DNA of 32,434 nucleotides from a virus, in IMG/VR virus record IMGVR_UViG_3300030085_002855, positions 3,081 to 35,514 of that record; one strand, written 5' to 3'. The translations under genes were made by a program, and so were the position numbers. The notes under the pieces were generated by a model. The model was not told where the DNA came from. It was given only the letters and a program-made list of their open reading frames with translations, and searched no databases. Shown piece by piece: positions 3,120-19,525 of the stretch. Every line of letters begins with the position of its first letter. Positions within the stretch are counted from its first letter, which is position 1.

Positions 3120-3824
3120 CTTGGTACGAATATTATCAGATCTCTTAATTACTTCACCTGAGGTCATTCTAACGTATTGTGATGACTTACCGTATTGCAA
3201 TAAATCACGAGTATCATTTAGGAATTGTTGCAGATAAGATTTTCTAAGAACGTATATTGCCCTTTTCTTTTCATTCTCTTCAGTTTCATATTCGAAATTA
3301 GAAACTGATCTTGTTATATTTGTCTTTGTAACCATCTGATCTAGACCACTGTCCCAGAATCTTACATATGACGATGTTACTGCCGTATCAACTTTTGGTT
3401 TTGGTGATTTAAAGTTATAATCAACGACTTGACCTTTAGGTAAAACGATTCTACCTTTACTATCTTTTACCTCTATAGTTTCATAATAAAGAGTCGCATT
3501 TAAATCACTTCCATACTTATCATAAGAATATTCGTAAATATCACGACTTGATAATGGCCATTGATCTCTTACATTTGTAATACCAGCAGTAATCAAAACA
3601 ACCCAATCAAGACCAACTGATCCATATAATTCATCAGCAACTTGATCTGGTCTCATCCCATCACCAATTTGATACTTCTCAAAACTAGTGAGATTATTTT
3701 GTACATCTTCTCTGAGTTTTATTCTCTTAAAAAGATTTTTTGCTGCAACATACTCTTCTGAGGTGTTACGATCCAGAAGAGGTGAAAGATATTCTATATT
3801 TGGTAGTTCTCTGAAATAACCCAT
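3111..3824 (-). CDS. 53: gp53 baseplate wedge subunit
   Basis: This 237-residue protein (T4 gp53 is 196) is a wedge component that helps wedges close around the hub. The recognisable core is GMRPDQVADELYGSVGLDWVVLI followed by WPLSSRDIYEYSYDKYG. It corresponds to T4 SPRPEELANAIYGNPQLYWVLLM and its downstream YQASIQKYK. The C-terminal helix NEKKRAIYVLRKSYLQQFLNDTRDLL matches T4 NEKLRQIKIIAKSDINSFMNDLIRIM. The middle (residues about 115-165) is longer than in T4. Its ATG overlaps the gp48 stop by 1 nt (TAATG). Its 3' end overlaps the convergent Mom-like gene by 9 bp. Confidence 0.92.
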   Translation of the reverse strand: MGYFRELPNIEYLSPLLDRNTSEEYVAAKNLFKRIKLREDVQNNLTSFEKYQIGDGMRPDQVADELYGSVGLDWVVLITAGITNVRDQWPLSSRDIYEYSYDKYGSDLNATLYYETIEVKDSKGRIVLPKGQVVDYNFKSPKPKVDTAVTSSYVRFWDSGLDQMVTKTNITRSVSNFEYETEENEKKRAIYVLRKSYLQQFLNDTRDLLQYGKSSQYVRMTSGEVIKRSDNIRTKSP

Positions 3825-5834: not shown

Positions 5835-6557
5835 ATGCCTAGCGTTCCTAATATAACCCATCTCACGATGGACAAGATACTCTCTAGTGCGGAGGGTGGA
5901 CTTTCTAGAGCAAATCAATATCAGGTTTGGATTTCTAATGGTTGGGGACTGAGTGCTGACGGAACATCAACACCCTTTATAAATCATGTACAACAGTATT
6001 ATAATTTAGCCTGGAATGCTACATTGCAAGAAAAACTATCTATTTCATGTGCTGAGGCAAATCTTCCATCATCAACATATGCCACTGGAGAAGTAAAAGA
6101 TAACTACATGGGTGTTGGGCAAGAGTATGCACACACCAGAGTTAATACTGATATTGATTTCACATTTTACCTTGACTCAAACTATGAAATATTGACATTG
6201 TTTGAGGCATGGATTGATTATATTTCTGGAACTGGTGCTCCACAATCAACTGGTCCTGGATATTACAGAAGATTTGCATATCCAAAACAATATAAGAATG
6301 AAACGGGAGTTTGGATTACGAAGTTTGAGAAAAACTGGAATACTCCTGGTGCCAGAAACATAACCTATCAATTAATTAATGCATTTCCAAAATCTATTGC
6401 ATCTATTCCACTACAATATGGTGAAGCAGAAATTGTAAAAGTATCTGTGACGATGAATTATGATAGATATAGAGTTTATAGAAATAGTGGATCGGGACCT
6501 GCAGCAGCAAATTCTGCTGCAGCAAATGGTATAACGGGAGCTGTGGCACCTGATTAA
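5835..6557 (+). CDS. 19: gp19 tail tube protein
   Basis: This 240-residue protein (T4 gp19 is 163) polymerises on the baseplate cap to form the inner tail tube. Recognisable parts are the N-terminal MPSVPNITHLTMDKILSSAEGGLSRANQYQVWIS, then LSISCAEANLPSSTYATGEV, then HTRVNTDIDFTFYLDSNYEILTLFEAWIDYI, and the final beta strand EIVKVSVTMNYDRYRVY. These match the gp19 fold, with its conserved mid-protein strand and late Y-x-R-Y. The extra length comes partly from the Ala/Gly/Ser-rich tail after residue 220. It is driven by the late motif at 5795; the ribosome site is poor (TAGAG). Confidence 0.9.
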   Translation: MPSVPNITHLTMDKILSSAEGGLSRANQYQVWISNGWGLSADGTSTPFINHVQQYYNLAWNATLQEKLSISCAEANLPSSTYATGEVKDNYMGVGQEYAHTRVNTDIDFTFYLDSNYEILTLFEAWIDYISGTGAPQSTGPGYYRRFAYPKQYKNETGVWITKFEKNWNTPGARNITYQLINAFPKSIASIPLQYGEAEIVKVSVTMNYDRYRVYRNSGSGPAAANSAAANGITGAVAPD

Positions 6558-6607: not shown

Positions 6608-7330
6608 ATGCCTTTACCAAAAATTAATACTCCAACATATGAGTTGGAGATTCCTTCTAATGGGAAGAAAGTAAAATATCGTCCTTTTCTGGTACGAGAA
6701 GAAAAAATTCTTGTTATGGCATTAGAGTCTGAAGACATGGCTCAAATTACAAATGCTGTTATAGAAATTCTTTCAGATTGTATTAGTACACGAGGTGTGA
6801 AGGTCGCAGAACTTTCTACATTTGATATTGAGTATCTTTTCCTCAACATTCGTGGAAAGTCTGTTGGTGAAGTTATTGAAGTTAACGTAACCTGCCCTGA
6901 TGATGGTGAAACCCAGGTCAAACTAGATATCAACATTGATGATATCAAGGTACAGACTAATAAGGAACATACTAACATTATTAAAATTGATGATACCTTA
7001 TCAATGAAGATGAAGTATCCATCAGTTAATCAGTTCATCGAAAATAACTTTGAGTATCAAGATGCTCAACCTGGTGTTGATAAATCACTAGATGTTATTA
7101 TTTCATGTATTGATATGGTATATAATGCGGATGAGTGTTGGTCTGCAAGCGATTGCACCAAAGAAGAAATGGAAGGATTTGTTGAACAAATGAATACCAG
7201 ACAATTTAAACAAATTGAATCTTTCTTCTCTACGATGCCTAAACTTTCACATACTGTGAAAGTTAAAAACCCAAACACAAAGAAATCTAATGAAGTTGTG
7301 CTTGAGGGATTAGCATCTTTTTTCGCTTGA
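6608..7330 (+). CDS. 26: gp26-like baseplate hub protein, zero-frame product
   Basis: This 240-residue protein belongs to the T4 gp26 baseplate-hub assembly family (T4 gp26 is 208 aa). Typical parts are the opening MPLPKINTPTYELEIPSNGKKVKYRPFLVREEKILVMA, then VKVAELSTFDIEYLFLNIRGKSVGE, then CPDDGETQVKLDI. The C-terminal helix is FVEQMNTRQFKQIESFFSTMPKLSH. The gene ends TCT TTT TTC GCT TGA. This contains the slippery heptamer T-TTT-TTC, so a fraction of ribosomes may continue in the -1 frame into the next ORF and make a product of about 297 residues. That arrangement, directly before the tape-measure gene, is the one used by tail-assembly chaperones of many other phages. Confidence 0.87.
   Translation: MPLPKINTPTYELEIPSNGKKVKYRPFLVREEKILVMALESEDMAQITNAVIEILSDCISTRGVKVAELSTFDIEYLFLNIRGKSVGEVIEVNVTCPDDGETQVKLDINIDDIKVQTNKEHTNIIKIDDTLSMKMKYPSVNQFIENNFEYQDAQPGVDKSLDVIISCIDMVYNADECWSASDCTKEEMEGFVEQMNTRQFKQIESFFSTMPKLSHTVKVKNPNTKKSNEVVLEGLASFFA
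7318..7324 (+). other. Predicted -1 programmed frameshift site (T TTT TTC)
   Basis: In the gp26 frame the bases read T-TTT-TTC, the X-XXY-YYZ form where both tRNA-Phe can re-pair after slipping back one base. The new frame runs CGC TTG ACA ATG with no stop and enters the 55-codon ORF at 7333. A 6-bp stem (7346-7351 GTCTTG with 7362-7367 CAAGAC, 10-nt loop) lies 21 nt downstream, rather far for a classic stimulator. Confidence 0.6.
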
Positions 7331-7332
7331 CA

Positions 7333-7500
7333 ATGTCGCATACTAGTCTTGAGTCTTACTACAAGACAAATTTTGCCTTGATGCAGTACCATAAATACTC
7401 TTTGACCGAGTTAGAAAATATGATGCCGTGGGAGAGAGAAGTATACGTTACTTTGCTCCAACAATATATTGAGGAAGAAAACGCAAAACAACAACAGTAA
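7333..7500 (+). CDS. Small tail-assembly chaperone-like ORF, probably the frameshift extension of gp26
   Basis: This is 55 codons, reading MSHTSLESYYKTNFALMQ, then YSLTELENMMPWEREVYVTLL, then QQYIEEENAKQQQ. The pattern (Y-S-L-x-E-L-x-x-M, W-E-R, a helix ending in E-E-N and Gln residues) resembles the C-terminal parts of tail-assembly chaperones, which sit between the tail tube and tape-measure genes. It lies in the -1 frame of gp26, starts 3 nt after its stop and ends exactly at the tape-measure start (TAA then GTG). No ribosome site precedes its ATG, which favours expression by frameshifting at 7318-7324. A free-standing small hub-assembly protein is the alternative. Confidence 0.75.
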   Translation: MSHTSLESYYKTNFALMQYHKYSLTELENMMPWEREVYVTLLQQYIEEENAKQQQ

Positions 7501-9921
7501 GTGGCATTAGAAAACCAACCATCTTTTACAGCACCATCTCTACCCAAAATGGGAAGAAGTACTATTGCTTCTTCCGTTATTTCTGGTGCTGGTAAAATTG
7601 GTTCTGGTAATCCAAAGTTAAAAACATCCAAAATTAGTTTTCAGAACGCGGGTGGTTTAAAAACATCTAAAATTGGTCTTCAGGATGCGAGTAGTAGTCT
7701 AAAACTTGAGAAGAATAGTGACATTGCTGCTTCACTAGAAGAGACTAATACCGTTCTTGTAGAGATACAAAAACAATTAGCACTAGATTTTGCTAATAGA
7801 ATCGTAGAAAGAAAAGATAGAATATCTTCGATTAAGAAGCAAAGAGATGCTCAGAAAAAGATGGCTAGAGAGTCATCTGTAGAATCTCCTTTATCAAAAA
7901 TATCTAAAAAATCCAGTGGTGTCCTGAACAAGGTGATGGCACCCACTAAAAATATTTTTAGTAAAATTATTGATTTTTTATCTTTAATTGGAACTGGAAT
8001 ACTTGTAGAAGAAGCATTTAAATGGTTCTCTGATAAAGAAAATAGAAAGAACTTAGAAAAAGTTTTTACTTTTCTAACTGATAATTGGAAAATACTTGCT
8101 GGTATTTTTATTGGTGGAAAGATACTTGGTGGAATTTTAAAGTTAGTTGGTGCAGCGAAAGCTTTAAGAGGTCTCCTTAGAAGAGTTGGATTATTAAAGA
8201 ATAAAGGTATTTGTGGTTGCTCTGATCTACCTGGTAGAGGTAGAAATAGAATACCTCGCGGATTTAGAACTCCAAGAGGTGGTGGAACTCAATTCTCTAG
8301 ATTCTTTAGGGCAGGAGCAAATCAAGCACCCATCGGTAGAATGGGTAGTCTTATCAATGAATCTACTGGACAAGCAACGAGAATGCTCGGTGCAAACAAA
8401 GCAGTTGATGTTCTTGGCAACTTAAAAAATGCTGGTGTTAGTAATGCAAACCGTGCTAGAGTCTTAGCAGGGCAATTAAGTGAAACACAAGCATTAGATA
8501 TTGCAAGAAAGAATACTGGAATATTGGGAAATCTTCGCCAAAATATTGGTGGAATTTTTGCTCAAGGACGTAATCTTGGTAGAGGAATAGTATCTCAAGG
8601 TCAAGAATTAATAGGTGGTGCATATAGAGGTATAAAAGGGTTCGGATCAAATGTGATGGACCTTGGTAGAACAGTTGGCAAAGGACTGATGGATGCAGGT
8701 GGTGCAGCTGTTAGTGGTTTAAAATCAACATGGGACAATATTGGCAAGACAGTTGCTAATTTAGATCCACGTAAGTTACCAGAAGTTATTCAGAATGCAG
8801 TTAAGGGAGAAATTGATAAGTTAAAGAAAGGATCACCAATATTTAAAAAGTTGATGAGTTTCATCAAAAATCCAAAAGATTTTATGACTTTATTAGCAGA
8901 TTTGGTATCTAAAGCAAAACCTGCCGTAAAGGGTATTAAGGATGCTAGGAAAGCAGTTCCATTTAAAATCCCTGGTGTTGATGTTCTTATTTCATCTTTG
9001 ATTGCAGCAGTGGAAATTGGAACAGGAGCTCCTGCTGGTAATGCATTATTGGGAGCACTTGGTGGTGTATTAGGATCTGCTGCTGGTACGACAATCGGTT
9101 CTTTTGCTGGTCCTCCTGGAGCATTGATTGGTGCTATGGCAGGTGGTGTTGGTGGAGAACTTTTATTCCGCCAAATTGCTTCTGCTATAGGTTCTCAAGT
9201 TGAGGAATCTGGCGCATCTTGGAATATGAATCTCAGTCCTAATGGTGCTCCACTATTCTCTAGTTCTTATGATCCAATGAATTTTGGTAGTGAAGAAGAA
9301 CCAGTAGAAGGTAAAAAGTTTGGTGGAATGATCCAAGGTCCTGGGCACGGTGCTGGGGGAGTTAAGATTGAGGCAGAAGGTGGTGAAGGATATATCTTAA
9401 ACAGATATGCAGCATCTAAAAATAGAGCATTCTTGGATGATGAAAACTTTAACCAAGGTAAGCAATTAGCAAAGTTTGCAAAAGGAGTTTCTCAGCAACA
9501 AAAGTCTTTAGGAATTCAACTTGATAATGTTAATAGATTTGAGGAAGTAACAAAAGAATTTAATGATATTCTGAAAGAAAAAATTAGAAAACAAGAAGAA
9601 TTAAAAAATAAAGAAGATACTCCAAGAAATCCACCCATGGGTGGTGGGGAACCACTTCATGGAGATAGAGTTCCTCCTGGTCCAATGTCCTTACAGGTAA
9701 TACCACATTCTCCTAGAGAAAGATCTCTTCAAAGATCAAGACCTAGTAGTGGAGGAACAACGGTAATTAATGCTGCTCCTGTTGTAGAACCAAAATCAGC
9801 ACCTGCTGTTCTACAGCAGTCTGCAGGTGCTGATCCCGAAAACACAATTGAGATTGATTCTTACGATGAAACTAATGAATATATTATTGAGGCATATGAA
9901 AGATACGGAATTTTCTTGTGA
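7501..9921 (+). CDS. Probable tail tape-measure protein (gp29 position)
   Basis: This 806-residue protein is the best candidate for the ruler that sets tail length. The first 60 residues repeat L-K-T-S-K-I twice, and a helical charged region follows (about 75-130). Next come hydrophobic stretches at about 150-180 (KIIDFLSLIGTGILVEEAFKWF) and 195-225 (WKILAGIFIGGKILGGILKLVG), then a long Gly/Ala helical body. A second hydrophobic Gly/Ala segment occurs at about 507-557. FGGMIQGPGHGAGGVKIEAE with GEGYILN (from about 607) is the motif often found near tape-measure C-termini. The start is GTG directly after the upstream stop. The N-terminal hydrophobic block resembles that of the next protein, suggesting paralogy. 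Similarity to T4 gp29 itself is not obvious by eye. Confidence 0.65.
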   Translation: MALENQPSFTAPSLPKMGRSTIASSVISGAGKIGSGNPKLKTSKISFQNAGGLKTSKIGLQDASSSLKLEKNSDIAASLEETNTVLVEIQKQLALDFANRIVERKDRISSIKKQRDAQKKMARESSVESPLSKISKKSSGVLNKVMAPTKNIFSKIIDFLSLIGTGILVEEAFKWFSDKENRKNLEKVFTFLTDNWKILAGIFIGGKILGGILKLVGAAKALRGLLRRVGLLKNKGICGCSDLPGRGRNRIPRGFRTPRGGGTQFSRFFRAGANQAPIGRMGSLINESTGQATRMLGANKAVDVLGNLKNAGVSNANRARVLAGQLSETQALDIARKNTGILGNLRQNIGGIFAQGRNLGRGIVSQGQELIGGAYRGIKGFGSNVMDLGRTVGKGLMDAGGAAVSGLKSTWDNIGKTVANLDPRKLPEVIQNAVKGEIDKLKKGSPIFKKLMSFIKNPKDFMTLLADLVSKAKPAVKGIKDARKAVPFKIPGVDVLISSLIAAVEIGTGAPAGNALLGALGGVLGSAAGTTIGSFAGPPGALIGAMAGGVGGELLFRQIASAIGSQVEESGASWNMNLSPNGAPLFSSSYDPMNFGSEEEPVEGKKFGGMIQGPGHGAGGVKIEAEGGEGYILNRYAASKNRAFLDDENFNQGKQLAKFAKGVSQQQKSLGIQLDNVNRFEEVTKEFNDILKEKIRKQEELKNKEDTPRNPPMGGGEPLHGDRVPPGPMSLQVIPHSPRERSLQRSRPSSGGTTVINAAPVVEPKSAPAVLQQSAGADPENTIEIDSYDETNEYIIEAYERYGIFL

Positions 9922-9932
9922 GGTACTGAACA

Positions 9933-11726
9933 ATGGAAGTAAAACAGGTTAATTCTTTAAAACTAAATGCAAAGAAGATCAATAGTGTATTGATCCGAGG
10001 AAACAGTAATGTAAAAAAATTAAGAGCAGACGAAAATAATTTGCTTTTGAGAATTGCCGATGAAAAGAAGAAAAAAACAGAAGAAAAGAAAGTAGAAAGT
10101 AGAGGTAAGATGAGTTTTCCAGGCAAAGGAATGCTTGGTAAGGTGGCAAAACCTGTTATGAGTGTTTTTGATAAACTACTAGAATTTTTTGGTAATATTT
10201 TACTTGGTGTTCTTTTAGAGGAACTTCCGAAAGCAATAGCAGCAGCAGAAAAATTCTTTGAGGATAATCCTTGGATTATACCAACTGTTAAAAACATATT
10301 TAAATTCTTGGGTAACACCTTGATGGGAATGATTGATCTTGTCAATATTATTAAACCTGCTGTAATTACTGCCTTCGAGAAATCTAGAGATGCCGTTATT
10401 TCTGCCCTGAATCTTTTTGGAATTGAGACTGATGCTCTGATGAGCGAAGATATGAAATCAGCAGAGCAATCTGTAGATGAAGCAATTGCTGCAACACAGA
10501 CTGAAGAAAATGAAACACCTGCAGAAGAAATGCAACCAACAGGTGAAGGTCCAATACCAGTACAATCAAATCCAAATATTCCAGCAGCATCAATTACACC
10601 AGTAAGTAGTTCTCCAGAAGCACCAGGACCAGGACCAGATGCAGTAGAATCAACAGCATCAACTCCAGATTCATCATCTCTAGCTCCAGCACCACAATCT
10701 CCAGTATCTGCACCAAAACCAGAAGGTCCCACATTAGACCAATTTAAGTTTGGAGGATCAATTCCAAAACTTGGTGGTGGAGGGTCAACACCGATTAGAA
10801 CTAGAAGGCAAAGAAGAAGAATGGTCCAGGAAACTGGAGTACAAAGAAAAGCAAGAGAACGATTGAGTTCTTATGGAAGATTCTTTGAGAATATGAAACT
10901 AGCATCATCTCTTGATGATAAGCAAAGTGAAAATAATGAGTCTTTCGAGAAGTTCTTAGAAAATTACCAAAAAGTACATAGTCTTGGTAAATATTCTTCT
11001 TTTGGAAGAGATCCCGATCATCCAGAGATTGATCCCAGAAATCCTTACGATCCTGTAAGTAATCTAGAGAATGCAACTTTTAGTGATGCTGCTGGAGCAC
11101 CTAGTAAATTTGTTAATACCAGAGACTTCCAAGAACAAAGAAGTGGATATAAGCATCATGGTGAGGACTATCCAATTGCACAAGGAACTGCAATTAGAAT
11201 GTTAAAGGGTGGAGTAGTTCATGGTGGATATTATGGTTTTGGAGGGGGTGCTATTGGTGGACAAGTTCTTATTACACATGATGATGGAACACAAACTAGA
11301 TATGGGCACTTGAGTGAAATATTTGTAAAACCTGGTCAGGAAGTAAAACCTAATGATATTATTGCAAAAACTGGAGGAGACCCAGGAACTAGAGGTGCAG
11401 GAAGATCTTCAGGACCACACTTACACCTTGAGTACTATCCTAGTACAACAGCAAGATATGCAGATCCATATCCAGTAGCAGATAAGTATTTTGTTTTTGG
11501 TAAAGGGGAATCTTCGAATAATGGTGATGGTGAGGGAGGACCAATGCGTCCTCTTAGTAGGGATCGTAGTGGTAACATTAGTCAATCCATGGATGATGGC
11601 ATGGAAGTTGTTTACATAATACAACCCATGGTACAGAGTGGTAGAGATACTATTCTGATTAGGAATATAGATAGACCTACAGTAATGAGGTCTAAATCTA
11701 ATCTAAAGAGACCAAGTTTAGCGTAA
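9933..11726 (+). CDS. Tape-measure-like virion protein with M23 metallopeptidase domain
   Basis: This 597-residue protein has three parts. Residues 1-60 are a basic helical region. Hydrophobic segments follow at about 65-130 (FDKLLEFFGNILLGVLLEELP), resembling the previous protein. A Pro/Ala/Ser-rich linker (about 190-265) precedes a K-F-G-G-S-I motif. The C-terminal M23/LytM domain (about 390-510) has all zinc and catalytic residues: His408 and Asp412 in HHGED, Y-G-H459-L, and His496/His498 in HLHLE. M23 enzymes cut peptidoglycan cross-links, so this is the likely wall-piercing activity of the tail, since no lysozyme domain is seen in the hub and spike genes that follow. It starts 11 nt after the preceding gene with GAGG upstream. 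Confidence 0.8.
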   Translation: MEVKQVNSLKLNAKKINSVLIRGNSNVKKLRADENNLLLRIADEKKKKTEEKKVESRGKMSFPGKGMLGKVAKPVMSVFDKLLEFFGNILLGVLLEELPKAIAAAEKFFEDNPWIIPTVKNIFKFLGNTLMGMIDLVNIIKPAVITAFEKSRDAVISALNLFGIETDALMSEDMKSAEQSVDEAIAATQTEENETPAEEMQPTGEGPIPVQSNPNIPAASITPVSSSPEAPGPGPDAVESTASTPDSSSLAPAPQSPVSAPKPEGPTLDQFKFGGSIPKLGGGGSTPIRTRRQRRRMVQETGVQRKARERLSSYGRFFENMKLASSLDDKQSENNESFEKFLENYQKVHSLGKYSSFGRDPDHPEIDPRNPYDPVSNLENATFSDAAGAPSKFVNTRDFQEQRSGYKHHGEDYPIAQGTAIRMLKGGVVHGGYYGFGGGAIGGQVLITHDDGTQTRYGHLSEIFVKPGQEVKPNDIIAKTGGDPGTRGAGRSSGPHLHLEYYPSTTARYADPYPVADKYFVFGKGESSNNGDGEGGPMRPLSRDRSGNISQSMDDGMEVVYIIQPMVQSGRDTILIRNIDRPTVMRSKSNLKRPSLA

Positions 11727-19148: not shown

Positions 19149-19352
19149 ATGAACACCGAAACTTTCGTCGAAGGCGTGCTGATTGATGTTTGCACCCGCA
19201 CTTTTCTTCTGATGAGTGATCAAGGAGACGAAAAGGTAGTAGAATGCAGTACTACCGAAGAGTTTATGAATGTTCTTGAGGTTTGCACCTCACACCTTAA
19301 CGAAGATCAGATTGAGTATGCTGATCTCGCCATCTATGGGAAAAAATCTTAA
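19149..19352 (+). CDS. Small acidic hypothetical protein, first gene of the Phd-like operon
   Basis: This 67-residue protein begins MNTETFVEGVLIDVCTRTFLLMSDQ and continues CSTTEEFMNVLEVCTSHLNEDQIEYADLAIY. The first half looks like beta strands and the second like a helix. It contains three Cys. It is not recognisable as a RelE, Doc or other known toxin. Its stop overlaps the start of the Phd-like gene (TAATGG), so the two are translationally coupled. The function is unknown; as the first partner of an antitoxin-like protein it deserves testing as an unfamiliar toxin or a plain host-takeover factor. Confidence 0.75.
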   Translation: MNTETFVEGVLIDVCTRTFLLMSDQGDEKVVECSTTEEFMNVLEVCTSHLNEDQIEYADLAIYGKKS

Positions 19353-19525
19353 TGGAAGTATTTACAATCAAAGAGTGGGAAGAAAACTTCGATGATCTTC
19401 TAGAAAGAGTAGAAAACGGAGAGCACATTGGTATCGTCAAAGAAGATGGTACAGCAGCAGTAATGATGCCCGCAGATGATGAACTTATACGAATATACAC
19501 TGACAATAACAACGAAGCTCAGTAG
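19352..19525 (+). CDS. Phd/YefM-like antitoxin-type DNA-binding protein
   Basis: This 57-residue protein reads MEVFTIKEWEENFDDLLERVENGEHIGIVKEDGTAAVMMPADDE, then a short polar tail. It follows the Phd/YefM N-terminal fold: strand, helix with N-F-x-x-L-x-x-R-V-E-x-G-E, strand, then K-x-x-G-x-x-A-V-x-x-P. That domain dimerises and binds operator DNA. The C-terminal toxin-neutralising part of normal Phd proteins (about 80 aa in total) is missing or very short, and no toxin gene follows. It is translationally coupled to the 67-aa gene and sits 9 nt before the first tRNA. The operator-like palindrome at 19111-19130 would suit autoregulation. Confidence 0.75.
   Translation: MEVFTIKEWEENFDDLLERVENGEHIGIVKEDGTAAVMMPADDELIRIYTDNNNEAQ

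Follow-up and report, generated by a model that had tools for sequence, protein, structure and literature searches.

The gp26 gene of the window (the whole stretch of viral DNA that was analysed, 32,434 nucleotides) is followed by a small ORF in another frame, which raises the question of whether the two are separate genes or one gene read through a change of frame. The initial annotation, made from the letters alone, had predicted a -1 frameshift between them in the arrangement of the lambda G/GT tail-assembly chaperones. Comparative evidence strongly supports this arrangement: alignment of relatives reveals the gene structure, a conserved slip site and coding selection in the -1 frame. On this basis, it is very probable that gp26 and the following ORF form one gene with a programmed -1 ribosomal frameshift. 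The features concerned are listed below.

6608-7330, plus strand: gp26, predicted short tail-assembly chaperone (TAC-N), 0 frame, 240 aa; PF12322 (T4_baseplate, E 2e-73) and PHROG 150 (E 1e-77)
7304-7309, plus strand: SD-like GAGGGA, proposed upstream stimulator, 8 nt from the heptamer
7318-7324, plus strand: slippery heptamer T-TTT-TTC
7324-7500, plus strand: -1 frame extension, predicted TAC-C domain corresponding to T4-type gp51, ending at TAA 7498-7500; PHROG 634 (E 2.4e-28)
7328-7330, plus strand: gp26 stop codon TGA, which the -1 shift would bypass
7333-7335, plus strand: ATG of the small ORF, a possible reinitiation start that is not conserved
7346-7367, plus strand: 6-bp stem-loop, GTCTTG (7346-7351) with CAAGAC (7362-7367)
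7501-9921, plus strand: 806-aa protein with a GTG start, presumed tape measure

The 3' end of gp26 reads GCA TCT TTT TTC GCT TGA (TCT, 7316-7318; TGA, 7328-7330), and the heptamer lies in the correct phase with the gp26 codons, one codon ahead of the stop, as initially annotated. The -1 reading is TTT TTT CGC TTG ACA ATG TCG and so on; it runs through CGC TTG ACA into the small ORF and stays open until the TAA. The virtual fusion of gp26 and the small ORF has 297 aa, in agreement with the predicted length of about 297 residues. The small ORF had also been described as having no ribosome site, and this was confirmed: its ATG is located 2 nt past the gp26 stop with no such site at the normal distance, and the nearest SD-like element, GAGGGA, ends 23 nt upstream of the ATG, which is too distant to serve this ORF. 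The small ORF had further been said to end where a tape-measure-like gene begins. The GTG-initiated ORF at 7501 indeed follows directly, and its identification as the tape measure is plausible, presumed from its position, its size and a glycine-zipper segment; no similarity emerged when the 806-aa protein was compared with the tape measure annotated in Cr30. Adjoining it is a second large tail ORF (9933-11726) with an M23 peptidase domain at its C terminus (PF01551, E 2.4e-17).

The neighbours of gp26 comprise an upstream tail tube gene, head closure and other tail genes. Together with the nearest relatives of the window genes, they fit a T4-like cyanophage as the probable source. The gene preceding gp26 (5835-6557) encodes a tail tube protein (PF23849, E 5e-27); in S-PM2 and S-SSM7 the gene at the same place is labelled hypothetical.

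The rarity of the heptamer within the window was dropped as evidence, because TTTTTTC occurs in frame three times in the 15 plus-strand genes and the DNA is AT-rich. Since the heptamer by itself is not rare, the evidence lies in its position and conservation. We took gp26 loci from IMG/VR and from named phages; 339 had a complete gp26 end. Their 120-nt junctions comprised 251 distinct sequences, which a loose similarity cut reduced to 99 representatives. TTTTTTN was present exactly one codon before the gp26 stop in 248 of the 251 distinct gp26/gp51 junctions. Its last base was C in 237 junctions, A in 7, T in 3 and G in 1. Thus, the 0-frame residue may change from Phe to Leu while the six Ts are kept. 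The codon preceding the TTT of the heptamer encodes S, A, D, N, T or G, and its third base is always T (log10 P -19.5); TTT is the only codon used for the first Phe (log10 P -16.8), with TTC making up 32% of the Phe codons in the rest of the gp26 gene. Both probabilities take the 99 representatives as independent lineages and therefore overstate the case.

Three junctions deviated. The heptamer was shifted by one codon in MC09, where it is immediately 5' of TAG, and in ORM_20, where it is two codons ahead of TGA. It was absent from Vibrio phage K364 (ACG CTT TTT GCG TAATG, 3700-3730 of its locus), the one relative in which no slip site was found. In K364 the stop and the start of the second ORF overlap in TAATG, so that in this phage reinitiation may have taken the place of frameshifting.

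The -1 ORFs counted from the heptamer were 58-71 codons long in all 245 complete cases. In 34 of the 99 representatives, no ATG, GTG or TTG was found in the -1 frame before codon 20. Among such junctions without a start (60 distinct), codons 5-18 showed 14442 third-position differences against 8043 and 7381 at the other two positions, and single changes were synonymous in 6010 cases and nonsynonymous in 3434. When the same bases were read in the other two frames as a control, the position and synonymous/nonsynonymous patterns were reversed. This selection for coding in the -1 frame indicates that the stretch is translated. Since no start codon precedes codon 20 in these lineages, a shift from gp26 is the only evident route of entry.

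The identity of the proteins points in the same direction. The match to PHROG 634 assigns the small ORF to T4-type gp51 by homology, an assignment that, like the SD-like element, goes beyond the initial annotation. T4 gp51, a protein of 249 aa, aligns along its length with the gp26 family (PF12322; PHROG 150 as far as position 280) and also has the PHROG 634 end, which is missing from T4 gp26. T4 gp51 is thus a natural fusion of gp26 and gp51, from which gp26 would be the short chaperone (TAC-N) and the fusion the long one (TAC-NC). The predicted structure of gp26 had a pLDDT of 85.8, and a structure search with it found many viral gp26 proteins and one gp51. In a fold search of the PDB, the HK97 gp13 tail assembly chaperone (2ob9) ranked third and sixth and had the highest probabilities among the entries listed (0.28 and 0.20), although its E values of 0.68-0.90 are not significant. 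No relative came up when PDB sequences were searched with the gp26 profile.

Frameshifting might also be accompanied by some free gp51, made by reinitiation in the lineages that bear the ATG. The ATG 2 nt past the stop makes coupled reinitiation possible in the window genome, where the frameshift signals are intact as well. However, lineages differ in whether they have this ATG, and a need for free gp51 is not known from any relative, so that this double route is rather unlikely.

Considerably less likely is that gp51 is a separate small protein made only by termination and reinitiation at this ATG, the poly-T being incidental. The first ATG occupies the window's position, about 2 nt past the stop, in about a third of the representatives, and databases annotate gp51 as a gene of its own, currently as a "hub assembly catalyst". 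Against this stand the 34 representatives that have no start before codon 20 despite the -1 coding selection there, the invariance of the heptamer, which goes beyond amino acid constraint, and the fused form in T4. Slippage of RNA polymerase on the T run, rather than of the ribosome, is very unlikely, because six consecutive Ts are short for bacterial transcriptional slippage and the way the heptamer is phased with the codons, the SD-like element and the hairpins fit ribosomal slippage.

With respect to ribosomal frameshifting, we examined the possible stimulators on both sides of the heptamer. Upstream, the strongest anti-SD pairing within 60 nt is at GAGGGA in the window, and across the 99 representatives it is at the conserved Leu-Glu-Gly codons. 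The pairing at this site exceeds the expectation from synonymous codon choice (Wilcoxon p 2e-6). The spacing between GAGGGA and the heptamer is close to the distance that stimulates -1 shifts in E. coli dnaX. In dnaX, too, an SD-like stimulator (about 10 nt upstream) precedes a homopolymeric heptamer. The dnaX heptamer is A-AAA-AAG and the gene is unrelated; its shifted product is the shorter one, unlike that of gp26/gp51, and dnaX has a downstream hairpin, which here is found in many relatives but not in the window.

Downstream hairpins with z below -2 were detected in 42% of the representatives, compared with 0 and 3% in control stretches. They are of two types: a compact one formed by CCCTC/GAGGG, such as GCCCTC-TTTCAC-GAGGGC, and a 9-bp stem, GTATGGCTC/GAGTCATAC, with covarying pairs. 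Pairing of the 9-bp stem was 0.74 in register and 0.31-0.50 when the arms were slid. Neither type was found in the lineage of the window, in which the 9-bp stem pairs at 4 of 9 positions and z is +1.2. The 6-bp stem-loop of the initial annotation is present in the window, but its role as a stimulator was rejected, because it is weak (z -1.54 and -0.51) and starts 21 nt past the heptamer, beyond the usual distance of a stimulator. It is partially conserved in near relatives, with the third pair mismatched in most. An H-type pseudoknot made from the 6-bp stem and the 9-bp hairpin was also dropped, since about 2-3 nt would have to cross the 9-bp stem. In the window genome, GAGGGA is therefore a better-supported candidate stimulator than the 6-bp stem. 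We tentatively suggest, at somewhat less than even chances, that T4-like cyanophages keep the slip site while the stimulators turn over, with an SD-like element in most and at least two hairpin geometries gained and lost between lineages. If this is true, the turnover would tune the ratio of TAC-N to TAC-NC.

According to the frameshift model, the majority of ribosomes would end at the gp26 stop codon and yield the 240-aa TAC-N. In a minority, the tRNAs on TTT TTC would slip by one base to TTT TTT, with GAGGGA probably holding the slipping ribosomes back, and these ribosomes would produce the 297-aa TAC-NC with the gp51 domain at its end. By analogy with lambda gpG and gpGT, many short copies would coat the tape-measure protein and few long copies would recruit tail-tube subunits; the product ratio and the chaperone role are thus predictions of the model. 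In lambda, a short product and a long one reached by a -1 frameshift come from adjacent ORFs close to the tape-measure gene, and the predicted layout of the window locus, with its presumed tape measure, is similar. In genes of the G/GT type, the long product is a minor one of a few percent, and both products are missing from the virion and bind the tape measure. Its heptamer, G-GGA-AAG, is unlike T-TTT-TTC, and no sequence similarity of gp26 to lambda gpG was seen in family searches.

Vladimirov, Gautam and Davidson reportedly identified the TAC genes of T4-like phages (Virology, 2022), and their abstract is said to describe several T4-like groups in which frameshifting is conserved and to assign genes 26 and 51 to the group of T4 itself. 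Frameshifting by -1 is the usual route by which tailed viruses make two tail-assembly chaperones. Atkins et al. (2016, PMC5009743) describe G-T frameshifting as widely conserved among long-tailed phages "except T4". Some T4-like phages have a short gene and a fused long gene (PRFect, PMC10885494). PMC12846349, citing Vladimirov, Gautam & Davidson (2022, Virology 566:9), states that TAC-N genes of T4-like phages have poly-T -1 frameshift signals. The initial annotation did not recall the arrangement being described for the T4-like gp26 locus; the signals had already been reported, so that the finding is correct and not new. What sequence comparison adds here is how far the signals are conserved, the existence of lineages that have no start codon, and the candidate SD-like and hairpin elements. 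The TAC locus of Vandenendeviridae/Andersonviridae (phage Adele, PMC12846349) likewise has a conserved poly-T (GTTTTT) at the 3' end of TAC-N, a -1 frame that is always open and a downstream ORF misannotated as separate, although both the phage family and the motif differ from those of the window.

T4 gp26 and gp51 belong to the same families as the window locus (PF12322, PHROG 150 and PHROG 634). T4 encodes the short form and the long, fused form in separate genes, 26 and 51 respectively, whereas the window phage has one locus with a predicted frameshift. The single-locus arrangement beside the two-gene one bears on the long-held status of T4 as the exception to tail-chaperone frameshifting. 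None of the 14 named relatives inspected had the frameshift annotated. In syn9 and S-E7, gp51 is annotated from an internal ATG; in Aeh1, VH7D and ORM_20, the gp51 annotation is absent and the -1 extension is unannotated. In T4-like cyanophages, the annotations of gp26 and gp51 should be merged into that of a single frameshifted tail-assembly chaperone gene.

Elsewhere in the window, a 57-aa ORF at 19352-19525 (MEVFTIKEWEENFDDLLERVENGEHIGIV...) resembles a Phd/YefM-type antitoxin by eye. It lies directly 3' of a 67-aa ORF, and one base is common to both.
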